From Methylacidimicrobium sp. AP8 (GTDB lineage: Bacteria; Verrucomicrobiota; Verrucomicrobiia; Methylacidiphilales; Methylacidiphilaceae), in contig NZ_LR797830.1 of assembly GCF_903064525.1 (NCBI RefSeq), forward strand, positions 558,001 through 622,000: a stretch of 64,000 nt of DNA, written 5' to 3'. The notes below the pieces were generated by a model. It saw only the letters and a program-made list of their open reading frames with translations. It made no database searches and was not told the origin of the DNA. Position 1 is the first letter of the stretch; each line of letters begins with the position of its first letter. Shown one piece after another: positions 31,348-48,275 of this stretch. The translations under genes and the position numbers were made by a program.

Positions 31348-31712
31348 GAGGAAGAAATCAAATGCGGCATCTCGAGCCGTTCCCGTTGACTACGCTGGGC
31401 GGGTGGCTGCTCGCGCTTCTGTTTCTAGCGGGAGTGGGCATCTGCTTTCTTTCTGTCAAGAATCGTGTCGCGCGGCTCTCCCTGGAAGTGGCGCGCGCCG
31501 AAAAGGATCTCAACCAGTGGAAAAAGCGGAACATGCGCGTGGCGGTGGGGATTGCGCGGGCGAGCTCCGCCGCGGAGCTGGAACGGAGGATCGCTGCCTG
31601 GCATCTGGGTCTGATCAAGACGAGCGAGCTCGAAGTGGTTCGCATGGAAGAAAACAAGCGCCCTGACGCCCTTGCGGAAACAACAGGGAAGGCGAGCCCG
31701 CCATTACCATGA
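31344..31712 (+). CDS. ftsL: FtsL-like small bitopic division protein
   Basis: 122 residues. A short cytoplasmic N-terminus, one membrane helix (GGWLLALLFLAGVGICFL, about residues 19-36) and a heptad-rich coiled coil (VARLSLEVARAEKDLNQWKK onward). FtsL sequences are poorly conserved, so the call rests on topology and the position between rsmH and ftsI. FtsL joins FtsB and FtsQ to activate FtsWI in the septum. It overlaps ftsI (ATGA). Confidence 0.8.
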   Translation: MRGRNQMRHLEPFPLTTLGGWLLALLFLAGVGICFLSVKNRVARLSLEVARAEKDLNQWKKRNMRVAVGIARASSAAELERRIAAWHLGLIKTSELEVVRMEENKRPDALAETTGKASPPLP

Positions 31713-33463
31713 AAACCCGTCAGCGCTCGCTTTGGGTCCTGGTCCTGCTCGCCTTCGGATTCACGGTGGTCTCGCACCGGCTCATCCAGCTCCAGCTCGT
31801 CGAGCACCCGAAGTACGCGCGCCTGGCGATGCTTAACCACTGCGCCCGTGTCGAACTGCCGGCGCATCGGGGGATGATCGTCGACGTTCATGGCACCCCG
31901 CTCGCCCAGAGTCAGGCTGTTTACGAGGTGCGGCTCGACGGAAAGAACCTTCTCGATCCGGAACGGGTCCTTCCGAGGCTCGAAAGCTTGCTCGGCCTGG
32001 AGCTGGGCACGCTTTCCCGCTCTTTCCGGCCGAGCGAGAGATATCGGCTGCTTGCCAAGCGGGTGGGCGAGGATGTCGTTCAGAAGCTGAACAGCTTCGA
32101 GCAAGAAAAGCTGCGGGAGTGGCGGGCGCAGGGCAAGAATCCGGAGCCCTTCCTCCTTTTCCACGAGGATTTTATCCGCGTTTATCCCAACGGGCGGGAG
32201 GCCGCGGCCGTCGTCGGACTGGTGGACGCGGAAGGAAAGGGAGTATCGGGTGTGGAGCGCGCCTTCGACCGGCAGCTTCGCGGCTCTCCGGGGGAGCGCT
32301 GGATCGAAAAGGATGTCCTCGGTAGGGAAATTCCGGTGTATCGTCGCTTCAACGTCAATCCCGTCGACGGTGCGACGGTTCGGCTGACCATCGATTTGAC
32401 GATCCAGCACATTCTGGAACAAGGATTGGACGAGCTGGATCGCGAATACCGGCCCAAGGCGATCTGCTCGGTCGTGATGCGGCCGTCGACGGGCGAAGTG
32501 CTGGCCATGGGTGTCCGGCCGACCTTCGACCCGAACGACGGAGAGCACGTGCGGCCCGAGCTTTTGCGCAACCGGTGCTTGACCGACCCGGTGGAGCCCG
32601 GGTCGATCTTCAAGATCGTCACGCTCGCCGGGGTCCTCGAGGAAAAGCAGGTGACCCTCAACACGCTGATCGACTGCGAGAACGGAGCCTTTTCCTATGC
32701 CGGCTACCTCCTGCATGACAGCCATCCCTGCGGGACGCTCACCGTCCGTGAGGTGACAGCCAAGTCGAGCAACATCGGTTTCGCCAAGTTGGGAATCGCC
32801 CTGGGCCCGGCTCGGCTCTACCGCTTCGCGCGCGCCTTCGGAATCGGCTCCCCGACGGGGATATTGCCGTTGCAGGGCGAGTCGGCGGGCCTGCTCCGTC
32901 CTCCGTGGCAGTGGTCGAAGCTCTCGATCAGCCGCATCCCCATGGGACAGGAGGTGATGGTCACCCCGATCCAGATGGCGCAAGCGATGTCGGTGATCGC
33001 CAACGGCGGGATCTTCATGAAACCGATGCTCGTCCGCGGGTGGATTTCTCCCGAGGGAAAGCCGATCTCCTACGTCGCCCCCCAGCAGGTGCGGCGCGTC
33101 ATCTCGGAAAGGACGGCGCGCTGGGTGTCGCTGGCGCTGGCCAGCGTGGTAGCAAAAGGGGGTACCGGAACGAAGGCGGCCGTGCCCGGATACACGGTGG
33201 CGGGAAAGACGGGGACCGCGCAGAAGGCGGTCGGCGGGAGCTACGGGCACAACCGGTACGTCTCTTCCTTCGTCGGCTACATGCCGGAGGAGGATCCCCA
33301 GTTCGTGCTGCTGATCATGGTAGATGAACCCAAAGGGAGCCACTACTATGGCGGCGAGGTCGCCGCGCCGGCGTTCCGTTCGATGGCCTCGCAAATCGCC
33401 GAAGCCTTGGGCATGGTGCCGAGGAGCGCCCCGGCAAGGGCGGCACACGGAGGATCGTTGTGA
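31709..33463 (+). CDS. ftsI: Septal peptidoglycan transpeptidase FtsI (PBP3)
   Basis: 584 residues. N-terminal anchor helix (LWVLVLLAFGFTVVSHRLIQ), then the non-catalytic pedestal module with RGMIVDVHGTPLAQS. In the transpeptidase domain the nucleophile motif is S-I-F-K (Ser about 299, EPGSIFKIVT), SxN is SSN near 353, and the KTG box is VAGKTGTAQK near 500. It cross-links septal peptidoglycan with FtsW. No PASTA domain is seen. It is coupled at both ends to ftsL and murE by overlapping codons. Confidence 0.95.
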   Translation: MKTRQRSLWVLVLLAFGFTVVSHRLIQLQLVEHPKYARLAMLNHCARVELPAHRGMIVDVHGTPLAQSQAVYEVRLDGKNLLDPERVLPRLESLLGLELGTLSRSFRPSERYRLLAKRVGEDVVQKLNSFEQEKLREWRAQGKNPEPFLLFHEDFIRVYPNGREAAAVVGLVDAEGKGVSGVERAFDRQLRGSPGERWIEKDVLGREIPVYRRFNVNPVDGATVRLTIDLTIQHILEQGLDELDREYRPKAICSVVMRPSTGEVLAMGVRPTFDPNDGEHVRPELLRNRCLTDPVEPGSIFKIVTLAGVLEEKQVTLNTLIDCENGAFSYAGYLLHDSHPCGTLTVREVTAKSSNIGFAKLGIALGPARLYRFARAFGIGSPTGILPLQGESAGLLRPPWQWSKLSISRIPMGQEVMVTPIQMAQAMSVIANGGIFMKPMLVRGWISPEGKPISYVAPQQVRRVISERTARWVSLALASVVAKGGTGTKAAVPGYTVAGKTGTAQKAVGGSYGHNRYVSSFVGYMPEEDPQFVLLIMVDEPKGSHYYGGEVAAPAFRSMASQIAEALGMVPRSAPARAAHGGSL

Positions 33464-37494: not shown

Positions 37495-37522
37495 GGACGT
37501 GCGAAGAAAAAAAGGGCAGCGG

Positions 37523-38260
37523 ATGAGAAGAAAAATACGGTCGTCGGCGAAAGTGCTGCGCTGGAAGCCATCCGGTGCCCCTGTCCCGAGCGGAGCGACG
37601 GATTCCTCTCCGAGTTCTACGGACCTCGTGCAGCAAGAGCTCCCGCTGAAGGAAGGAACGGCCGGGCTGCGGGTGATCACGGTCATCCTGGCCGTAATGC
37701 TCCTTCACGTGCTCTTCATCGGCGGCGTCGCGCTCTATCACCTTTTGCGCGGCGAAGGGAAACTGGCTGCGGGCGGGAGCGCGGCAGCCAAGGCCCCGGC
37801 GGCGGTCGCCGCCGATGCCTCCCGGGCTCGCCCGGGAGGGAGGCCGGAAGAAGGATCGCCGAAAGCGGCCTCGGCCGCGCCCGCTTCAGCTTTGGCCCGG
37901 GAAGCGGCGAAGGGGCAGACCGATGCCCCGGCGCTGTCGATTGCCCGGGATTCGGAAAGAAAAAAGGGGGGCGGGAAGCGGCTTCGGCGGGCCTCCTTCC
38001 AAGGAAACGGAGAGGCCGATACTTCGGCGGCGGCTTCCGCCAACGGGCTGCGGGCCGAAGCGGCCGCGCCCCGGGTCTATCGGGTTGTGCGGGGTGACAG
38101 CCTCTGGCGGATCGCTCGTCGATTCCACGTCGGACTCGACGACCTGATGAAGGCGAATCAACTGACTCCGGCGAGCAAGCTGCAGATCGGACAGGAGCTT
38201 CGGATTCCTGCGGAGAAGGCAAATCGCGGCCGCCGGAGCGGCGGCCTGGCCGGGGGATAA
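37523..38260 (+). CDS. Membrane-anchored LysM protein in the murD position of the cluster
   Basis: 245 residues from ATG 37523. A basic cytoplasmic N-terminus, one membrane helix (VITVILAVMLLHVLFIGGVALY, about residues 52-73), and a long Ala/Pro/Gly-rich, low-complexity periplasmic linker. A single C-terminal LysM domain follows: YRVVRGDSLWRIARRFHVG, then LDDLMKANQL and LQIGQELRIP. LysM binds glycan strands of peptidoglycan. It probably ties the septal machinery to the wall. It lies between mraY and ftsW, each in the same direction. Confidence 0.85.
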   Translation: MRRKIRSSAKVLRWKPSGAPVPSGATDSSPSSTDLVQQELPLKEGTAGLRVITVILAVMLLHVLFIGGVALYHLLRGEGKLAAGGSAAAKAPAAVAADASRARPGGRPEEGSPKAASAAPASALAREAAKGQTDAPALSIARDSERKKGGGKRLRRASFQGNGEADTSAAASANGLRAEAAAPRVYRVVRGDSLWRIARRFHVGLDDLMKANQLTPASKLQIGQELRIPAEKANRGRRSGGLAGG

Positions 38261-38294: not shown

Positions 38295-39452
38295 GTGAGG
38301 GAAAGGCAGCTTCACCGCTGGGCCGCTTACGCGCTCGTTTTCATCGCGTTCGCGCTCATAGGGTTGGGATTGATCGCGCTCTACAGCGTGGCCGGCCGGT
38401 TCGTGGGCGAGAAGGATGCTTCTCTTCTTCCGCTGGTCGAGCGGCAGCTCTGCTGGATCGGGATCGGCATCGGAGCGGGTGTGGCTCTGGCGCGCATCGA
38501 CTATCACTGGTTCCTGCGGCGTTCCACGGCGCTGCTCGGCTTGGGACTCTTCCTGCTCCTGCTCTGCTTCCTTCCCGGAATCGGCCACCGGGTGCACGGT
38601 TCTGCGCGCTGGATCGGCCTCGGGCCGTTGGTTTTGCAACCCTCGGAGCCCCTCAAGTGGTGCCTCTGCCTCTTCGCCGCATCCCAGTTGGGAAGCCCGC
38701 CAACCCGGCGGGCGGAGCAATGGCGGCGGTACGCGACGGTTCTCGCCGTGACGCTCGTCCTCGCCGGCATTCTGGTTTTTGCTCGCGATCTCGGAAGCGC
38801 CGCCCTCTACCTGACCCTGGCCGCCGTCATCCTGGTGATCGCCGGAGTGCCGCTCTGGCTGATCGGACCGGGCTGCTTGGCGGCCGCCGGCGGTATTCTC
38901 GGAGTGGCTCTGAGCATTCCCGAGCGTAGGGCCAGGTTGCTCGCCTTTTGGGACATGGAAAGCGATAAGCAGGGCAAGGCCTATCAGGTCTGGCAGGCTC
39001 TTGTCGCCCTCGGTTCCGGAGGAGTCACCGGCCTGGGATTGGGGAACAGCCGGCAGAAGATGTACTATCTGCCTGAAGCCACGACCGATTTCATCTTTCC
39101 CATCCTTGGGGAGGAGCTCGGTCTTTGGGTGACCTTGGGCGTGGTGTTGGCCTATCTGGCGTTCACCCTATGCGGCGGCTGGATCGCGCTTTTCGCTCCC
39201 GACGCAGAGGGATTGCTGCTCGGCATGGCACTGATCGTCCTCATCTCGATCCAGGCCATCGCCAACCTGGGAGTGGTCACGGGTCTCCTGCCGAACAAAG
39301 GATTGCCTTTGCCTTTCATCAGCTATGGAGGCTCGAATATGTTGTTCTGCCTGATGGCCCTAGGCACTCTTCTCAACATCCATCGGCAGGGAGGCAAGGG
39401 GTCGGCGTTTTCTGTCGAGTCCCGCGGCGCGCAGCGCAGCGTGCGGCTATGA
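38295..39452 (+). CDS. ftsW: Septal peptidoglycan glycosyltransferase FtsW
   Basis: 385 residues from GTG 38295, ten membrane helices, SEDS family. Signature blocks: GIGHRVHGSARWIGLGPLVL (with QPSEPLKW following), the loop motif LPEATTDFIFPILGEELG, and near the C-terminus TGLLPNKGLPLPFISYGGSN. FtsW polymerises lipid II into glycan strands together with FtsI. Its stop overlaps the murG start (ATGA). Confidence 0.95.
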   Translation: MRERQLHRWAAYALVFIAFALIGLGLIALYSVAGRFVGEKDASLLPLVERQLCWIGIGIGAGVALARIDYHWFLRRSTALLGLGLFLLLLCFLPGIGHRVHGSARWIGLGPLVLQPSEPLKWCLCLFAASQLGSPPTRRAEQWRRYATVLAVTLVLAGILVFARDLGSAALYLTLAAVILVIAGVPLWLIGPGCLAAAGGILGVALSIPERRARLLAFWDMESDKQGKAYQVWQALVALGSGGVTGLGLGNSRQKMYYLPEATTDFIFPILGEELGLWVTLGVVLAYLAFTLCGGWIALFAPDAEGLLLGMALIVLISIQAIANLGVVTGLLPNKGLPLPFISYGGSNMLFCLMALGTLLNIHRQGGKGSAFSVESRGAQRSVRL

Positions 39453-40549
39453 GCGAGCGGAGCGTCGTCATCGCCTGCGGAGGCACGGGCGGGCATTTGC
39501 TGCCCGGAATCGCCGTCGCCGAGGAGCTGCGGCGGAGAGGCAAAGAGATTCTCCTGCTCCTTTCCGAGAAGCAGATCGACCGGACGGCATTGGAGGGAGA
39601 GGAGAAGTTCCCGTGGGAAACCCTCCCCGCCATCGGCTGGCCTGGGGGCCTTTCCGGGAAGACCCCGGCATTTTTCTGGAGGCTCGGATCCAGCTGGCGG
39701 AAGTGCGGGAGCCTCTTCCGCCGCTTGGCTCCCGGGGCGGTTCTCGGGATGGGGGGGTTTATCAGCGCCGCACCGCTTCTCGTCGCCAAGAGACGGCAAA
39801 TTCCGACGCTGCTTCACGAGTCGAATGCCGTCCCCGGCCTGGTGACGCGCATCCTGAGCCACAAGGTCGATCGCGTCCTTCTCGGCTTCCCGGAATGCAA
39901 GAAGCGTCTGCCGGGAATTCCGTCGATCGTGACAGGGACTCCGCTCCGCGCCCGGCTTCGGAGGGTCCCGCGCGACGAGGCGGCCAAGGCGCTCGGTGCG
40001 GCCCCCGATCGCTCGACGATACTGGTCCTGGGCGGCAGCCAGGGGGCGCATGCCTTGAACCGGCTTTTAGGGGACGCCGCGCCCGCGCTCGCGCGAGGGG
40101 GGAGCCCGGTCCAAGTGCTCCATCTATCCGGTCCGGCGGATCGGGAGGCTTGCGCGGCCGCCTATCGGGCGCAGGGAATTCCCGCCGTGGTCGAGAGCTT
40201 TTCCCATAGGATGGATCTCTTCTACAGCCTGGCCGATGTGGCGGTCGCCCGCGCCGGGGCCGCCACCCTGGCGGAAGTCGCCTTCTATGCATTGCCGGCT
40301 ATCCTGGTCCCTTTTCCGTTTGCCGCCGACGACCATCAGCGTATCAATGCGAAAGCTTTCGTGGCGGCGGGAGCGGGCCTGGCCTACGATCAGGCTGCCT
40401 TGTCCGGAGAAATCCTGGCGGAAAGGCTTCTGGAAATCCTGCGCGACGAGAGGCGGCGGCGGGCGATGGCTGCAGCGGCGGCCGGCTTGGCTCGGCCGGA
40501 GGCGGCGAAGGCGGTCGCGGATGAGGTGGAAAAATGCATGCAACATTGA
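39449..40549 (+). CDS. murG: UDP-GlcNAc:lipid I N-acetylglucosaminyltransferase MurG
   Basis: 366 residues from ATG 39449, overlapping ftsW. GT-B fold, family 28. N-terminal glycine-rich loop CGGTGGHLLPGIAVAEEL, the VLGMGGFISAAPLLVAK block, the HESNAVPG motif, LVLGGSQGAHALNRL at the start of the second domain, and the donor-site region ARAGAATLAEVAFYALPAIL followed by PFPFAADDHQ. It converts lipid I into lipid II at the cytoplasmic face. The last 16 bases overlap the start of murC. Confidence 0.96.
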   Translation: MSERSVVIACGGTGGHLLPGIAVAEELRRRGKEILLLLSEKQIDRTALEGEEKFPWETLPAIGWPGGLSGKTPAFFWRLGSSWRKCGSLFRRLAPGAVLGMGGFISAAPLLVAKRRQIPTLLHESNAVPGLVTRILSHKVDRVLLGFPECKKRLPGIPSIVTGTPLRARLRRVPRDEAAKALGAAPDRSTILVLGGSQGAHALNRLLGDAAPALARGGSPVQVLHLSGPADREACAAAYRAQGIPAVVESFSHRMDLFYSLADVAVARAGAATLAEVAFYALPAILVPFPFAADDHQRINAKAFVAAGAGLAYDQAALSGEILAERLLEILRDERRRRAMAAAAAGLARPEAAKAVADEVEKCMQH

Positions 40550-42831
40550 CCGGTTCCTGGAACGGCCTTCTCAGTCGGCCCTGTCGCATCCACCTTGTCG
40601 GAGTAGCAGGCTCCGGTGTCGGTCCCCTCGCCCGCCTCCTGCTGCTCCAAGGGCATCAGGTATCCGGATCGGACCTGCGCCGGACACCCGCCGTCGCCGA
40701 GCTCGAGCGGATGGGGCTGCGCTTCTTTCTCGGACACGACGGCGATCTGCCCGAAGGGGTGGAGCTTCTGGTCTATTCGTCAGCCGTCCGCGAGGACAAC
40801 CCGGAGCGCCGGATCGCCGCGGCACGGGGGATTCCGAGCGTGCGGAGGGCCGACTTGCTCCGGGAGCTTTGCCGGACCAAGAAGTCGGTCGTCGTCGCGG
40901 GGATGCACGGAAAGACGACGACGACGGCCCTCCTCGCCCATATCCTCCGGCGGAGCGGTTGGGAGCCTTCCTACTACGTCGGTGGGGATGCGCCGGTGCT
41001 CGGCGCGAGCGCGGACTGGGGCAAAGGGGACTACATGGTTGTCGAAGGCGACGAGAGCGACGGCACGCTGGCTTTGTTTGAACCCTCCCACGCGGTCCTC
41101 TTGAACGTGGAGGAGGAGCATCTGGATTTCTATCCGGGCATGGAGGCGATCCTCGAGGTCTTTGCCGCCTTTCTGGACCGGTGCACGGGCAAGATCGTCT
41201 ATTGCGCGGATGATCGGCATGCCTCGCTGCTCAATGCGGGGCGAAGCAATGCGGTAGGCTATGGATTTGGCCCGGCGGGCCGGTACCGAGCCGAGCGGGT
41301 CGAGCTGGGGCCGTTCGAGAGCACGTTTCTGCTGGTTGCCGGGGGAGAGCCCCTCGGGAAGGTTCGAGTACCGCTGCCCGGAAGGCAAAACGTCCAGAAT
41401 GCCTTGGCCGGAATCGCCATGAGCCTGGAGCTGGGGCTGCCTTTCGCCGATGTCGCTCCGGCCACGGCGAGCTTCCGGGCGGTCAAGCGACGCTTCGAGG
41501 TACTCTTTTCCGGGCCGTCTTTCCTGATCATCGACGACTACGCGCATCATCCCACCGAGATTCGGGCGACCTTGGCCACCGCCGCGATAGCGCGCCGGGA
41601 GCGGGTTGTGGCACTTTTCCAGCCGCATCGCTATTCGCGCGCCCGCGGGCTGGAAAAGGACTTCGCAACGGCCTTCGGCGAAGCGGATCTGGTGTTGGTG
41701 ACGGACATCTACGGAGCGGGTGAGTGTCCCATCGAGGGCGTGAGCCCGGAACGGCTGGCGCAAAAGATCGCCGAAGGGAGCGGGGTCAAAACCCTTTTCG
41801 CCCGCAGCATCGCGGAAGCGAAGAAGCTGGCGGCTGCCAACTTGCGGCCGGGAGATCTTTTGCTGGCGCTGGGGGCCGGAGACGTGCACCGTGTCGCCCG
41901 GGCGCTGGCTGCGCAATGCGCCCTCTACGAGGAGCTGCGCCGATCTCTGTCGTCCTCGGCGGTTCTCTCCCTTGAGGAAAACCTGGGGTCCCATACCTCG
42001 TCCGGCCTGGGGGGCGCGGCGGAATTCTGGTGCGAGCCCGCCTGCCGGGAGGACCTCCGCCGGCTGATCGAAATCGCCGCTCGCGAGAAGCTGCCTCTGA
42101 CGGTTCTCGGCAGCGGCGCGGGCAGCTTGATCCGGGACGGAGGCGTCCGCGGCGTCTGTGTGAGCCTCCGCCATCCCGCCTTTTGCCGGGTGGAGTCGGA
42201 CGGCGGTCGAATCGCCGCCGGCGGCGGAGTGCTTCTTGACCGGCTGGCCGCAGAAACCGCCCGCTGCGGAATCGACGGGTTTTCTTTCCTTTCCGGTCTT
42301 CCCGGCACGCTCGGTGCATGGCTGGCGGCCGGCACGGGAGCCGGGAGGCGGCGGCTCGTCAACAGGCTGGAAGAGGTGGTCCTGATCGATCGAACCGGCA
42401 GGTGGCACACCCTCGACCGGGCGGAGATCGAATCCTGGCCGGATGAGGGGCCCGGGTGCCCGCCCGGCATCATTGTCGGCGTACGCTTGCGGAGCACTCC
42501 CTTCCGGGCGGACGAAGCTTTTTGGTCGCCGGCGGCGGATGGCGCCGGGGACGGAGGCTCCCCGCGGAACGGTCGGCGGCTCGACGGGGTTTTGCGGTTT
42601 CCGCCGGGGGCGGACGTCCGGCGGCTTTGGAAAGGATTGGGCCCGGATTCCCTTGCCGTCGGGGGAGCTTGGATCGATCCCCGGTTCCCGAATCGGATCT
42701 GGTTGCGGGAGGGAGCTAGATCGGCGGACGTGGTCGCGCTCCTGGAAACAATCCGGAAGCGGCTGGGTGAGGAAATGGGTGTCGAGCCGGCTTTCGGCCT
42801 CGTCCTTGTCGGAGAAGAGGAGAGTTCGTGA
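40534..42831 (+). CDS. murC: MurC ligase fused to a degenerate MurB-like domain
   Basis: 765 residues. Residues 1 to about 460 are UDP-MurNAc:L-Ala ligase: IHLVGVAGSGVGPLARLLL, ATP loop AGMHGKTTTTALLAH near 122, VVEGDESDGTLALFEP, DDYAHHPTEIRATL, and FQPHRYSRARGL. From about 470 a MurB-like domain follows with an FAD-site remnant (LTVLGSGAGSLIRDGGVRG) and SGLPGTLGAWLAAGTGAG. The usual Y-R-x-S motif is missing, GSxFKNP is replaced by LRFPPG, and the C-terminal LEPEV-type glutamate by VEPAF. MurC should work; MurB activity is doubtful. MurC-MurB fusions are known in Verrucomicrobia-related bacteria. Confidence 0.92.
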   Translation: MHATLTGSWNGLLSRPCRIHLVGVAGSGVGPLARLLLLQGHQVSGSDLRRTPAVAELERMGLRFFLGHDGDLPEGVELLVYSSAVREDNPERRIAAARGIPSVRRADLLRELCRTKKSVVVAGMHGKTTTTALLAHILRRSGWEPSYYVGGDAPVLGASADWGKGDYMVVEGDESDGTLALFEPSHAVLLNVEEEHLDFYPGMEAILEVFAAFLDRCTGKIVYCADDRHASLLNAGRSNAVGYGFGPAGRYRAERVELGPFESTFLLVAGGEPLGKVRVPLPGRQNVQNALAGIAMSLELGLPFADVAPATASFRAVKRRFEVLFSGPSFLIIDDYAHHPTEIRATLATAAIARRERVVALFQPHRYSRARGLEKDFATAFGEADLVLVTDIYGAGECPIEGVSPERLAQKIAEGSGVKTLFARSIAEAKKLAAANLRPGDLLLALGAGDVHRVARALAAQCALYEELRRSLSSSAVLSLEENLGSHTSSGLGGAAEFWCEPACREDLRRLIEIAAREKLPLTVLGSGAGSLIRDGGVRGVCVSLRHPAFCRVESDGGRIAAGGGVLLDRLAAETARCGIDGFSFLSGLPGTLGAWLAAGTGAGRRRLVNRLEEVVLIDRTGRWHTLDRAEIESWPDEGPGCPPGIIVGVRLRSTPFRADEAFWSPAADGAGDGGSPRNGRRLDGVLRFPPGADVRRLWKGLGPDSLAVGGAWIDPRFPNRIWLREGARSADVVALLETIRKRLGEEMGVEPAFGLVLVGEEESS

Positions 42832-43731: not shown

Positions 43732-44595
43732 ATGAACCGCATCCGCAAGCCCAACCGGAGAAAGCGCCGACCGGCCCGAACCGTGCTCCAGGCCCGATTG
43801 GGGCCGAAGCAGCGGAAGCGGCTCATCCTGCGGCGGATCGCTTCCGTTCTGCTGATCCTCGCGGGCATTGGCGCGGTGGGAGGCGCGGGCTACTATGCAG
43901 GGACGCGGCTGGCTCTCCCGTTTTTGTCTGCGGATTCGCGCTATGCGTTGCGGGACATTGTGGTCGATGGAACCGGGCGCCTTCCTCGCAAGGAGATCAT
44001 AACGGCCTCCGGACTACGCGTGGGTCAAAACCTACTGGGGGTCTCGCTTCCGGAGGTCTACAAGGCGGTTTCGTCGTTGCCTTATGTGCAGCGGGCTTCG
44101 GTCCGCCGCGTGCTTCCCGATCGCATCGAGATCCGCGTGGAGGAGCGGGTTCCGCTCGCCAGGGTCGTGACCAAGGCGAAACGGTTTTCCGGCCGGAACT
44201 TGTGCGTCGACTACCAGGGAGTCGTCTTCGTGGCGCGCAAGGGTGAAGTCCTCTCCCTTCTGCCGGAGCTCGAGGGGGTGCCGTCCGATGATCTGGAGAT
44301 CGGGAACCGGTTAGCCACCCCGGAATGCCGGGCGGCCCTCCGGCTGCTCGGCTTGCTGCAGGAGAACCCTTCCATGCGCAATCTCTTGGATCCGGCGGTC
44401 GTCGACGTGTCCGGCCGCTTATGCCTCAAGGTCGTCAGCCGCGACGGGGTAGGCATCGTCTTGCGCCTGGACCACTTGGAGAGGCAAATGAGGAGGCTGC
44501 AGAAGATCTACGCTTTTTCCCAGAGCCGGGGCCGCAAGGTCGCCTCCGTGGATCTGACCCCGGAACAGAACGTGCCGGTGATCTTCGAATACTAG
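43732..44595 (+). CDS. ftsQ: Cell division protein FtsQ
   Basis: 287 residues. A strongly basic cytoplasmic tail (RKPNRRKRRPARTV), a membrane helix (ASVLLILAGIGAVGGAGYYA, about residues 37-56), then a POTRA domain (YALRDIVVDGTGRLPRKEII, then LPYVQRASVRRVLPDRIEIR, VEERVPLA) and the FtsQ C-terminal domain. It scaffolds FtsL/B in the divisome. Begins one base after the ddl stop. Confidence 0.9.
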   Translation: MNRIRKPNRRKRRPARTVLQARLGPKQRKRLILRRIASVLLILAGIGAVGGAGYYAGTRLALPFLSADSRYALRDIVVDGTGRLPRKEIITASGLRVGQNLLGVSLPEVYKAVSSLPYVQRASVRRVLPDRIEIRVEERVPLARVVTKAKRFSGRNLCVDYQGVVFVARKGEVLSLLPELEGVPSDDLEIGNRLATPECRAALRLLGLLQENPSMRNLLDPAVVDVSGRLCLKVVSRDGVGIVLRLDHLERQMRRLQKIYAFSQSRGRKVASVDLTPEQNVPVIFEY

Positions 44596-44625: not shown

Positions 44626-45864
44626 ATGTTCGGCAGCAAATCTAGGACGATCCTTGTCGGGTTGGAGGCGGGAACCAGCAAGATCAAAGTAGCCGTTGCC
44701 GAGCTCGACGCCCAAGGATCGCTGATCCTTCTCGGAGTAGCCGAGAGCCCTTCGACGCATATCCGCAAATGCGAGATCACCGACTTCGAGATGGCCCAGA
44801 AGGCGATTCATCAAGCGATCCTGGACGCGGAAGCGAAAATGGACGTTTCGATCGGGGAGGTCTACCTGGCCATTTCGGGCGCGCACATTCGATCGTTCCA
44901 TAGCCGTCTCGCTCTCGACCTGGGAGAGGAAGGGGCGATGATCGAGGAGGGCCACCTGCGGGAGCTGCGGAATCTGGTCCGGCAGCAGGCCCTACCGCCG
45001 GGCCAGATCCTCCTTCACGATCTTCTGCAAACCTATATTCTCGATGACGGAACGGCGACTGCAAATCCCGTCGGGCTCTTCTCCCGCCGGCTCACGGCCG
45101 ATTATCACTTGATTTCCGGGATCGCCACACGTCTCCAGACCACCGTTCACTGCGTGAAGGAGCTCTCTCTGCAAGTGAAGGGATACGCCTTGTCGAGCTA
45201 TGCGACCGCCCAGGCTGTCCTCACTCCGGAGCAGAAGAGCTTCGGAGCGGTCGTCATCAATTGCGGAGCCGGGATCACCGATTATATCGTCTACCGGAGC
45301 GGCTTCGTAGCCCATTCGGGGACCCTCGGGGTCGGGGGGGACCACCTTACGAACGATTTGGCCTTCGCCGTGAAGATTCCCTTCCCCAGGGCGGAGGATC
45401 TCAAGAAGACCTATGGCGCGGTGGACTCGCGGAAAGAGGCGGCATACCGCCGCGTGGAATTGGCGGCCGAGGGGACTTACGAGCCGCGGTTCATTCCGAT
45501 GTCGTTAATCGTGGAGGTGCTCCAAGCGCGGCAGGCGGAGATTTTCGAGATCATCCGGGAACAGTTGGAGGAGCAGCCGTTCTGGAGCGAGTTTTCCGGC
45601 ACGATTTTTTTGACGGGCGGAGGGTCCCGGCTCGAGGGCATCCAGAAACTGGCGGAGAAGATTTTTGATCGGCCGGTGGAACCGGCCAGGCTGATCCCCT
45701 TCGACGGAGAGGTGTCCTGCGAGGGGAGGCAGGATTGGATGACCGTATTGGGGCTGCTCCGGTATGCGCGGATCCTGGAGATGCAGGAGCACGGAAGAGG
45801 GCGCTGGGACCGCGTGGGCCGGTCGCTGCGGCGCTTCTTTTCCGGGTTCCGGTTCGTTTGTTAG
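44626..45864 (+). CDS. ftsA: Cell division protein FtsA
   Basis: 412 residues. Actin-like ATPase: phosphate 1 VGLEAGTSKIKVAVAEL, the 1C/SHS2 domain (ISGAHIRSF), phosphate 2 region VVINCGAGITDYIVYRSGFV, the adenosine motif IFLTGGGSRLEGIQKLAEKI, and a C-terminal amphipathic stretch rich in Arg and Phe (LRRFFSGFRFV) for membrane attachment. FtsA tethers FtsZ through FtsZ's C-terminal peptide. The downstream gene encodes a highly divergent FtsZ that still has that peptide. FtsA itself looks normal. Confidence 0.94.
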   Translation: MFGSKSRTILVGLEAGTSKIKVAVAELDAQGSLILLGVAESPSTHIRKCEITDFEMAQKAIHQAILDAEAKMDVSIGEVYLAISGAHIRSFHSRLALDLGEEGAMIEEGHLRELRNLVRQQALPPGQILLHDLLQTYILDDGTATANPVGLFSRRLTADYHLISGIATRLQTTVHCVKELSLQVKGYALSSYATAQAVLTPEQKSFGAVVINCGAGITDYIVYRSGFVAHSGTLGVGGDHLTNDLAFAVKIPFPRAEDLKKTYGAVDSRKEAAYRRVELAAEGTYEPRFIPMSLIVEVLQARQAEIFEIIREQLEEQPFWSEFSGTIFLTGGGSRLEGIQKLAEKIFDRPVEPARLIPFDGEVSCEGRQDWMTVLGLLRYARILEMQEHGRGRWDRVGRSLRRFFSGFRFVC

Positions 45865-45899: not shown

Positions 45900-47057
45900 A
45901 TGAGCATTCGCATCGTGGGGGCGGGAGGAGCAGGAATTCAGGTCCTCGACGAATGGATCCTTCTCTCGGATCGCCAGCAGGGGAGCGTCGCCTGCGACGG
46001 AGAGGCCTGTGCGGTCGAAGGGTCGCTGGCGTCCGAAAAGCTCCTCCTCGCCCCCGACCTCGCCGGAGGCCTCGGCTGCTTCGGCAGCCGCGACCTCGCG
46101 TGGCGGATGGTAGGACAGGAGAACCGGCGGCTGGATGCGCTTCTGAAGGATTGCTCCGGTTTGTTGATCGTGATCGGGCTTGCGGGCGCGACGGGCGCGA
46201 CCGTCGCGGAAGCTCTTTCCCTCAAGGCGGTGGAACGCGAGATTCCGACCACCGTTTTTGCTTTTCCTCCCTTTCCTTTCGAGCCGGCGCAGCGGCGGGA
46301 GTCGGCGGAAGCGACCCGTGCTGCTCTTCCGGCCGAAGTCTCTCTCTTTCTTTTTCCGCCCCCGGCCTTTTTTGAAGATCCGCTTCCGGGTGTAGCCGCG
46401 GTTCGCCGCGGGTTGCGCGAGTTCCACGGCGCTCTCGCACAATGGATCGGAGTCTGGGAGGGCGTGGCGAACGGTGCGGTCCGCCCAATCCTTCGTGGCG
46501 GCGGAGCGGAAGATTCCCCGTTTGCCCGGGGCGGAAGGATCGACGGTTGCCGCCTCTTCGGAGTGGCGGCTGCGCACCTCGACTTCGCGTCGCCTGGGTT
46601 GCTGGACGGGGCCGAGTTCCGGGAAGCGGCCGAGAAAGCCGATCGATGCCTCGCCTACGTGGAGGGTGGCGACGGCCTTTCCGGGTCGTGCGGGGAGCTG
46701 GGGCGGAAGCTGCAGGAGCAGCTCGCCCAGGGAACGGACCTCTGGCTTCTGCAGCGGACGGAGGAAGCTCCGGCGGAAAACCGGCTCTTGCTTCTCGTAG
46801 GTCGGGCCGCCTCCCGGCATCATCGCGTATCGGAATGCCCGGAGGAGGGCCGGGGCAAGCCGGAGGAGCCGGCCGCCCCCGCCCGCGCCGCTCCGGAACC
46901 GGAAGGGGTGGCCGCCTTTCCTGCTTTGGAGGCCACCCCGTTTGCGAAAACCGCAGCTACCATGTACAAAGGGGTCAATCTCGATATTCCGGCCTTTCGG
47001 CGGAGGAGAGGAAGCCGGTTTGCAAAGGAGAGGCCGGCCGAGCCGGGAGAAGCCTAA
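45900..47057 (+). CDS. ftsZ: Highly divergent FtsZ with degraded GTPase motifs
   Basis: 385 residues from ATG 45900, directly after ftsA, the standard ftsZ position. It can be aligned with FtsZ along most of its length: IRIVGAGGAGIQVLDEW for IKVIGVGGGGSNAV, an LAGGLGCFGSRDLAWRM stretch for the G-L-GAG-NPEVG loop, CSGLLIVIGLAGATGATVAEA for [20 protein letters not shown], and TTVFAFPPFPFEPAQRRESA for TVGVVTKPFxFEGxxR. Its C-terminus is LDIPAFRRRRGSRF, the conserved FtsA/ZipA-binding peptide, after a Pro/Ala-rich linker. The tubulin signature GGGTGTG is reduced to AGATGAT, and no T7 NxDFADV loop is recognisable. GTP binding and hydrolysis are therefore doubtful. Confidence 0.82.
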   Translation: MSIRIVGAGGAGIQVLDEWILLSDRQQGSVACDGEACAVEGSLASEKLLLAPDLAGGLGCFGSRDLAWRMVGQENRRLDALLKDCSGLLIVIGLAGATGATVAEALSLKAVEREIPTTVFAFPPFPFEPAQRRESAEATRAALPAEVSLFLFPPPAFFEDPLPGVAAVRRGLREFHGALAQWIGVWEGVANGAVRPILRGGGAEDSPFARGGRIDGCRLFGVAAAHLDFASPGLLDGAEFREAAEKADRCLAYVEGGDGLSGSCGELGRKLQEQLAQGTDLWLLQRTEEAPAENRLLLLVGRAASRHHRVSECPEEGRGKPEEPAAPARAAPEPEGVAAFPALEATPFAKTAATMYKGVNLDIPAFRRRRGSRFAKERPAEPGEA

Positions 47058-47144
47058 AGGGAGTCGCGGGCCGCCGGGGACGCGGCTTGCCGCGGATCGG
47101 ATATGGCGAGCGATCGTCGGCAGGAGGAAGGGAGGCAAGCGCGA

Positions 47145-48275
47145 ATGCCGGCCTGGGATAGGCCCGTCCGCCGGAGGCGGATCGAGAAGGGTCTCTCGCA
47201 AAAGGAAGTGGCCAGCCGGGTGGGAATCACCCGACAGGCTCTCCATGCCATAGAGACCGGGCGGTACATTCCGAACACTCTGGTTGCGATCCGCCTTGCC
47301 CGGGCGCTCGGCAGCCGTGTCGAAGAGCTCTTCCCCTGTTGGGAAGAAGTCGATCCTCCTCTGTCGCCCGGTCCGTTCCCCTGGGTGCGAGGCAGCAGGC
47401 GCCTGATCTTGGCGGACGTGCGCGGCCGCCTGATCCCCTACCCGGTGGAGCGGTTGGAAGAGGGCTCCGGCGTCTTCGCGGCAGCCGACGCCCTCCTCCC
47501 GGCCGGCGATCGGCGCGGAGAGTGGACCCTCCTCTCCTCGGCGGCCGTCATTCAACGCAGCGCGTTCTTTCTCGGCTGCGATCCGGGCATCGGCCTGCTG
47601 GTCGAAAGAATCGCGGCCTTAAGCCCGAACCGGCTCCGTTGGATCTCCTGCTCGAGCGAAAAGGCGGCGGCTGCGCTCCGCGCAGGCCAGACACACCTGG
47701 CCGGCTGTCATCTGCCGACCGGGGAGCCGCGCAACAACCGCGTGCTCGCCCGAGAGGCGTTGCAGGGAGTCGGTGGAGCCTTGATCCGCTTCGCGCAGTG
47801 GGAGGAGGGAGTGGCCGTCGCGCGGGGAAATCCGTTCGGCATCCGCTCGGTGGAAGATCTGGCCAATCCGGGCCTCCGGTTCCTGAATCGGGACCCGGGA
47901 TCCGGAAGCCGTGCGCTTCTCGACGAGCTGCTTCGCAGGCAAGGGATTCCGGCAGAACGGATCCCGGGGTACGAGAGAACGGCGGGCAGCCCGGTTGCCG
48001 CCGCACGGGCCGTGGCTTTCGGGATAGCCGACGCCGCATGGACGAACCGCCCTTGCGCGCAGGCGCAGGACGTCGAGTTCCTCCCCTTGGGCGTCAGTGA
48101 GTTCGATTGGATCGTTCCCCGAGACCTCCTCGATCATCCAACCGTCGCCCTCGTGCTCGATCTCCTCTCCGATGCGCGGATGCGGGCCGAATTCGACGCG
48201 CTTCCCGGATATGAGGTCAGCCGGATGGGAACGGTCGCGGCGAGATTCGGCCCGAAGGGCGAGATCTCCGGCTAG
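47145..48275 (+). CDS. XRE-family HTH regulator with periplasmic-binding-like sensor domain
   Basis: 376 residues from ATG 47145, nine bases after GGAGG; an upstream ATG at 47103 is possible. Residues about 5-62 are an XRE helix-turn-helix (IEKGLSQKEVASRVGITRQA, LHAIETGRYIP). The rest is a PBP-like domain of the molybdate/LysR-substrate type (GNPFGIRSVEDLANPGLRFL, NRDPGSGSRALLDELLRRQG, DVEFLPLGVSEFDWIVP). Homologous one-component regulators sense molybdate or related oxyanions, but the ligand cannot be read here. It starts about 90 bases after ftsZ on the same strand and shares a palindromic CTAG at its stop with the convergent ABC transporter gene. Confidence 0.82.
   Translation: MPAWDRPVRRRRIEKGLSQKEVASRVGITRQALHAIETGRYIPNTLVAIRLARALGSRVEELFPCWEEVDPPLSPGPFPWVRGSRRLILADVRGRLIPYPVERLEEGSGVFAAADALLPAGDRRGEWTLLSSAAVIQRSAFFLGCDPGIGLLVERIAALSPNRLRWISCSSEKAAAALRAGQTHLAGCHLPTGEPRNNRVLAREALQGVGGALIRFAQWEEGVAVARGNPFGIRSVEDLANPGLRFLNRDPGSGSRALLDELLRRQGIPAERIPGYERTAGSPVAAARAVAFGIADAAWTNRPCAQAQDVEFLPLGVSEFDWIVPRDLLDHPTVALVLDLLSDARMRAEFDALPGYEVSRMGTVAARFGPKGEISG

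Follow-up and report, generated by a model that had tools for sequence, protein, structure and literature searches.

Genomic Organization of the ftsZ Locus

The stretch of the Methylacidimicrobium sp. AP8 genome analyzed here (the window; 64,000 nucleotides, positions 558,001 to 622,000 of contig NZ_LR797830.1) harbors a dcw cluster with mraW, ftsI, two Mur-type ligases, ftsQ, mraY, ftsW, murG, a murC-murB fusion, ddl, and ftsA, the labels mraY, murG, murCB, and ddl being assigned by eye from the translations. The source genome is a single contig of 2,300,970 bases and is 99.89% complete. The ORF under study (45900..47057, + strand, as are all features given below by window position) encodes a protein of 385 aa from an ATG start and begins 35 bases 3' of the ftsA stop codon, the usual dcw place of ftsZ. 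It is an ftsZ orthologue with eroded GTPase motifs. The original prediction had described the neighboring division proteins as normal, and this was largely borne out by the profile searches. FtsA (44626..45864), the presumed docking partner, scored 269.9 bits against TIGR01174 (cut-off 175.85) and is normal. FtsQ (43732..44595) showed the POTRA_1 and FtsQ_DivIB_C domains, FtsI (31709..33463) the PBP dimerization and transpeptidase domains, and FtsW (38295..39452) matched TIGR02614 with 312.4 bits, slightly below the cut-off of 337.5.

Three further features of the cluster were observed. The murC-murB fusion (40534-42831; recognized by eye) also shows raised divergence in Methylacidimicrobium, and such a fusion has been reported for Verrucomicrobium spinosum as well (PMC12283558). 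A LysM-domain protein (37499-38260) is located between mraY and ftsW, a frequent site of murD. Downstream of ftsZ lies a regulator with helix-turn-helix and PBP-like domains (47103-48275), homologues of which adjoin ftsZ in G001-G006 (Methylacidimicrobium) and G007-G011 (the sister genus); none was seen in the examined stretch of G012.

The ftsZ gene was present in all seven Methylacidimicrobium genomes. The frame was open in each of the six complete copies; in the seventh (G006), a contig end removes the N-terminal third from view. The gene directly follows ftsQ-ftsA in G000 and G001-G005, and also in G007-G012; the gene order at ftsZ in G006 is unseen owing to the contig end. A frameshift or assembly artefact hiding a normal FtsZ core, raised with the original prediction as a possible refutation, was ruled out by the same open frame in six genomes. 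Likewise, the apparent absence of ftsZ from G006 was rejected, as the contig end cuts the gene.

Identity of the Window Protein as FtsZ

The sole Pfam match of the window protein was PF00091 (Tubulin/FtsZ GTPase domain), at 43.4 bits (cut-off 33). The sole NCBIfam match was ftsZ (TIGR00065), at 30.8 bits and far under the cut-off of 295.2; this cut-off is passed by none of the 45 genomes of the order and is thus without discriminating value here. Among 113 class genomes, 23 passed it. The lowest scores belonged to Methylacidimicrobium (27.1-43.7 bits across the four of its genomes that gave a real match; the truncated G006 gave only a 12.8-bit match elsewhere in its genome), the rest of the family scored 61.3-78.2 bits, and all others scored at least 88.9 bits. 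Sequence matches in the PDB at E <= 10 were to FtsZ in 49 of 53 cases, the remaining four having E >= 0.52, and the FtsZ matches spanned residues 2-136 up to 2-183 of the window protein. FtsZ_C (PF12327) had no match in the window protein, G004, two sister-genus proteins, G012, and G046; it was above the cut-off in G075, G087, G064, and L036, and below it in G111. The window protein was not among the PF13809 (FtsZl1/Tubulin_2) matches at E <= 1.

In the ftsZ tree, calculated without the partial G006 copy, the genus was recovered with support of 100/100, its union with the sister genus with 99/93, and the further union with G012 with 98/94, the whole being nested among the order relatives. The tree follows the course of descent. 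Stem lengths of 1.38 and 1.66 changes per column were measured, the former for the long branch before Methylacidimicrobium. The PF00091 match, the PDB matches, and the supported place in the tree uphold the original view that the protein in the ftsZ slot is a divergent FtsZ, and orthology together with position shows a vertically inherited Methylacidimicrobium ftsZ.

Structural modeling with AlphaFold2 from three sequences of the genus gave a best model with a pLDDT of 57.8 (residues 5-73 below 50), which matched FtsZ over residues 1-304 with a Z-score of 18.1 (Foldseek 3.6e-12). On addition of the N-domain of one viral-contig FtsZ, the confidence of the N-domain rose (mean 63.5), and the second model matched FtsZ with a Z-score of 23.9 (294 residues, 4.2 Å, residues 1-304; Foldseek 1.7e-14), a gain that is partly circular as this shallow alignment includes an FtsZ row. 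In each run, one of the five models was clearly the best, the others reaching at most 50.5. The two-domain FtsZ fold is thus predicted to be intact. Following helix H7, the expected T7/H8 site is occupied in the model by a short strand (194-198) and a loop. The structural comparison proposed with the original prediction therefore gave a divided answer: the fold is predicted whole, and neither the T7 loop nor the pocket's base side is intact. Separately, a 56-kb contig from a viral collection was seen to carry a 310-aa FtsZ (L097:1989-2921) with GTPase motifs intact by eye and with neither linker nor C-terminal peptide.

GTPase Motifs in the Methylacidimicrobium Copies

The motifs were scored in the six complete copies with E. 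coli FtsZ as the yardstick; the guanine-contact positions (N165, F182, and N186) and the catalytic residues (T7) are those established for FtsZ. The T1 loop (residues 7-14, GAGGAGIQ; 45918..45941) retains its glycine pattern and reads GAGxxGI in all six copies. The change from GGGG to GGAG noted in the original prediction is real, and its reading as a sign of decay does not hold, as alanine at E. coli position 21 is found in 15 of 15 class-level sequences and is the normal verrucomicrobial form. The T3 loop (residues 57-64, GLGCFGSR; 46068..46091) reads GLGCFG[SG]R throughout. The T4 signature loop (residues 93-102, GLAGATGATV; 46176..46205) is altered from GGGTGTG, the window protein having LAGATGAT as against MGGGTGTG in E. 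coli; the genus shows AGATG in five copies and AGGMG in one, with G106 and G109 retained in 6/6 and T108 in 5/6. In the region of the T5 loop (residues 122-132; 46263..46295), the equivalents of E138 and R142 were kept in all six.

The base side of the pocket and the catalytic loop present a different picture. N165 was found in none of the six copies; in the modeled core helix H7 (residues 165-190; 46392..46469), F182 is replaced by L and N186 by H or Q, again in all six. In the T7 loop and H8 region (residues 191-213; 46470..46538), NxDFADV is absent, as originally predicted, and its place is taken in the model by the short strand and loop. None of the six has N207, D209, or an acid at 212, and the T7 string is also missing in the partial G006. 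No acidic residue is invariant across the six copies within residues 191-217. Five of the six do have an acidic residue at position 204, in what was the T7 region (Q in G005), where the alignment is unsure.

The C-terminal (activation) domain (residues 213-303; 46536..46808) has a predicted FtsZ fold, is unrecognized by Pfam FtsZ_C, and is under relaxed selection. It is followed by a linker (residues 304-346; 46809..46937) and by a C-terminal segment (residues 347-370; 46938..47009) with NLDIPAFRRR, the putative FtsA/ZipA-binding peptide. The tail motif NLDIPA[FY]RRR was retained in 7/7 genomes (the six complete copies and G006), in keeping with the conservation of an FtsA-binding tail seen at the outset.

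Graded Motif Loss Across the Order and Class

Of the 32 order genomes at least 80% complete that were searched, G124 and G133 gave no match, leaving 30 sequences from 30 genomes. The motif panel thus comprised 57 sequences (six from the genus, five from the sister genus, one from G012, 30 from the order, and 15 from the class), the partial G006 and the second ftsZ-like gene of G126 being excluded from the recount. The latter genome, an order relative, has two near-full-length ftsZ matches (166.2 and 140.1 bits).

The supposedly universal catalytic loop proved to be altered order-wide: N207 was missing in 30 of 30 order relatives and D209 in 29, and the acid at 212 was present in all 30 (D in 19, E in 11). 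The guanine contacts were more often kept (N165 in 19/30, F/Y182 in 17/30, and N/D186 in 23/30); two or more were missing in 10 of the 30 and all three in none. The sister genus (n = 5) has lost N207 and D209 in all five sequences, an acid aligns at 212 in two, T4 reads GG[AG]MG, and none of the five has lost any of the three guanine contacts. G012, of a third genus, has SLTPWEL at T7 and GGTTG at T4, and two of its guanine contacts are missing. All three contacts were lost in 6/6 sequences of Methylacidimicrobium vs 0/51 of the others. Hence, motif loss forms a graded series across the order, with loss of T7 catalytic residues and then of all base-binding positions, a gradation not foreseen in the original prediction.

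The proposal that a rewritten T4 loop marks a dead enzyme was rejected on recount, since GGGTG is found in only 10 of 30 order relatives and AGxTG in 6. The T4 change reported originally (GGGTGTG to AGATGAT) is therefore correct as a reading of the sequence and a weaker sign than supposed. T7 loss is also not unique, as three class-level sequences (two of family f29 and one other) have neither N207, D209, nor an acid at 212. Four sequences of f29, a different verrucomicrobial family (L067-L070), have an unalignable T3, GGET[AG]S or GGDFGS at T4, and an altered T7, apparently a separate case of erosion.

Relatives that presumably divide often show single motif losses, so Verrucomicrobia may depend less on these residues than E. 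coli does. This observation speaks for a GTPase that is slow yet real, its active site rebuilt in a way invisible to motifs, as does the retention of the T1 and T3 glycine pattern and part of T4. We regard such an enzyme as a poor prospect, because three guanine-contact and three T7 positions are replaced in all six copies and the invariant acidic residue sought in residues 191-217 is lacking among them. Retention of T1, T3, E138, R142, and part of T4 makes it possible that some nucleotide binding remains.

Selection on ftsZ

Nei-Gojobori dN/dS was calculated from six genomes (G006 excluded), with murCB measured in four genomes and ddl in five; the values are rough since dS was often about 1 or above. 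Over the whole gene, ftsZ had the highest value of six (0.267), followed by murCB (0.192), ddl (0.147), the downstream regulator (0.139), ftsQ (0.130), and ftsA (0.090). Within ftsZ, dN/dS was 0.122 for residues 1-150, 0.312 for 151-190, 0.326 for 191-212, 0.413 for 213-303, 0.808 (near-neutral) for the linker, and 0.120 for the tail, the last from 11 of 15 usable pairs. The N-terminal domain and the tail are thus under purifying selection and the C-terminal domain is relaxed. The original suggestion, read as selection acting on FtsA docking and not on the core, is not sustained, as residues 1-150 show the same degree of constraint as the tail.

These values were placed against relatives using 19 chosen pairs (three from the genus, three from the sister genus, and 13 from elsewhere). 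For the N-domain, dN/dS was 0.13-0.20 in the three genus pairs, 0.11-0.21 in the three sister-genus pairs, and 0.01-0.25 elsewhere (12 usable of 13); the genus lies inside the range of its relatives, though above its middle. For the C-domain, dN/dS was 0.36-0.48 in the three genus pairs, 0.21-0.61 in the sister genus, and 0.01-0.30 elsewhere (10 of the 13 pairs being usable). Every usable pair from outside the family is thus less relaxed than the genus, and the sister-genus pairs give a mixed picture. The clearly relaxed parts are only the C-terminal domain and the linker. Mean tree distances from the genus to its nearest order relatives, as against those among order relatives, were 3.45/2.06 for ftsZ, 2.05/0.87 for murCB, 1.35/1.02 for ftsA, 2.09/1.78 for ftsQ, and 1.51/1.49 for ddl; the acceleration is not private to ftsZ.

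A decaying pseudogene heading for loss, as in Planctomycetes and Chlamydiae, would fit the stem of 1.38 changes per column and the highest whole-gene dN/dS of the six genes. It is strongly disfavored, to the point of hardly being credible, by the open frame in 6/6 complete copies, purifying selection on the N-domain and tail, and the preserved operon order.

Within the N-domain, the T1-T5 pocket loops were invariant at 29 of 41 positions vs 57 of 108 in the rest, a marginal result (p 0.035 by permutation; matched by 7 of 148 circular shifts; G006 excluded). Of the loops for which pN/pS in the genus was measured one by one, T3 was the tightest (0.034), followed by T4 (0.076), T5 (0.169), and T1 (0.219); the base-side T6 was loose (0.504). 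This marginal conservation suggests a remaining function for the pocket's phosphate half or for the surface formed there. One rival explanation is polymerization: FtsZ-like filaments formed without hydrolysis, either nucleotide-free or with another phosphate ligand, would be static and cross-linked by FtsA. The tight constraint on the phosphate-side loops T3 and T4, the retention of E138 and R142 in 6/6, and the whole predicted fold speak for such filaments. The other half of the longitudinal interface, formed by the C-terminal domain and T7/H8, is relaxed (dN/dS 0.41 and 0.33), and Pfam FtsZ_C is unrecognized, both of which argue against them. Static filaments are judged rather unlikely, though they rank first among the rivals, ahead of an FtsZl1 takeover and, after it, the hidden GTPase.

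Other Division Proteins in the Family

A second canonical ftsZ, which the original prediction had suggested looking for, was not found in the one-contig source genome; a weak second FtsZ match there turned out to be FtsZl1 (Tubulin_2, PF13809), also unforeseen. The FtsZl1 ORF (G000:C1 about 295434-298436; L139:7435-10437) ends 4 bases before an ORF with PBP-like and OmpA domains. FtsZl1 occurred in 7/7 Methylacidimicrobium and 4/5 sister-genus genomes, with a GLAGGTGSG loop in 11/11, i.e., above the cut-off in 11 of 13 family genomes vs 0 of 32 other order genomes. This distribution, the loop, and the neighboring ORF lend themselves to the explanation that FtsZl1 has taken over the force or scaffold work, leaving the old FtsZ as a relic adaptor. 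However, FtsZl1 was not found in G007 and G012, both with an eroded FtsZ, and is therefore not a general replacement; the order-wide T7 changes also occur in genomes without it. The discoverers of the FtsZl1 family, whose description lists M. infernorum, thought a division role unlikely given its usual coexistence with FtsZ (PMC2875224). A takeover by FtsZl1 is thus improbable.

MreB was above the cut-off in 13/13 family genomes. SepF and ZapA gave no match at E <= 0.01 in any of the 13, and had matches in 7 and 4 of 14 control genomes, respectively. A dynamin-like replacement was considered and rejected: the Dynamin_N cut-off was passed in 12/13 family genomes but in 13/14 controls too. Most of these matches were stretches of about 33 aa at the P-loop-like start of the profile, and they are read as ordinary P-loop GTPases.

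Proposed Role of the Eroded FtsZ

FtsZ hydrolyzes GTP on entry of the T7 loop of one subunit into the pocket of the next. In E. coli FtsZ, the D212A substitution strongly lowers GTPase activity (PMC8079713). With the T7 residues absent, intersubunit GTP hydrolysis would not be expected, nor, by extension, GTP-driven treadmilling, which is considered unlikely for the window FtsZ. With the base contacts lost, binding of guanine nucleotides in the pocket is improbable. Taking these points together, we lean, at somewhat better than even confidence, toward a catalytically dead, probably guanine-blind FtsZ retained as an FtsA-docked scaffold. The product would no longer be a working GTPase switch; its tail would hold it on the membrane-bound, actin-like FtsA polymer, the conserved N-terminal face (the T1-T3-T4 side) may bind a partner or a residual phosphate-type ligand, and septal filament dynamics would come from FtsA and septal wall synthesis rather than from FtsZ. 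The scaffold is the most economical and most likely explanation; its docking to FtsA, read from the conserved tail, its scaffold role, and the contacts of its N-domain are inferred. More tentatively, and at a good deal less than even confidence, septation may be led by FtsA with a non-polymerizing, guanine-blind FtsZ whose phosphate pocket is now a conserved site for another ligand or partner; the genus would then be a living late intermediate between FtsZ-driven and FtsZ-free division, with earlier steps in its relatives.

Treadmilling of FtsZ driven by GTP is treated as something that nearly all walled cells need in order to divide, and the complete loss of FtsZ from some PVC bacteria is a standing question. 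Methylacidimicrobium is free-living and combines a peptidoglycan gene cluster with normal FtsA and MreB; the only ftsZ found in it is a selected gene with a dismantled fuel site, and partial losses survive in its living relatives. A selected ftsZ with a dismantled GTPase core, along with graded relatives, makes a role of FtsZ beyond GTP hydrolysis directly testable. FtsZ-less division has been reviewed (PMC4164004, PMC5945725), and ftsZ and ftsA are essential in Verrucomicrobium spinosum (PMC12283558). An accelerated ftsZ in M. infernorum was remarked upon in 2008 without data, which a reviewer requested (PMC2474590), its FtsZ was marked with a question mark elsewhere (PMC5147048), and ftsZ was one of the housekeeping genes behind a Methylacidiphilum tree (PMC6549252). 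In the accessible portions of the literature on Methylacidimicrobium and Methylacidiphilum FtsZ, FtsZ pseudo-GTPases, and degenerate T7 loops, no account was found of the motif loss in the genus or of the loss series.

Comparison With Known Systems

In plant ARC3 and other FtsZ-derived division regulators that lack GTPase activity, the FtsZ-derived domain is thought to have lost catalysis. These regulators act beside true FtsZs, whereas no canonical FtsZ was found here. FtsZl1/Tubulin_2 (PF13809) belongs to the same superfamily, and its describers could not identify the T6-H7 elements in it (PMC2875224). It differs from the window protein in its size of about 1000 aa, its N-terminal tubulin-like domain with a long extra region, and its different operon, and is a separate protein in the genome. 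Bacterial FtsZ (TIGR00065; PF00091 and PF12327) shares with the window protein its descent, the place after ftsA, the predicted two-domain fold, the T1 and T3 glycines, E138 and R142, a variable linker, and the FtsA-binding tail; the window protein deviates in the absent T7 residues, the altered T4, the loss of three guanine contacts, and the unrecognized FtsZ_C. A further counterpart is the FtsZ of the sister genus (probably Methylacidiphilum), which likewise has lost N207 and D209 in 5/5 and has the same tail, gene order, and long stem. It keeps, however, the three guanine contacts in 5/5 as well as G105 and G106 of T4 and is thus one step less eroded.
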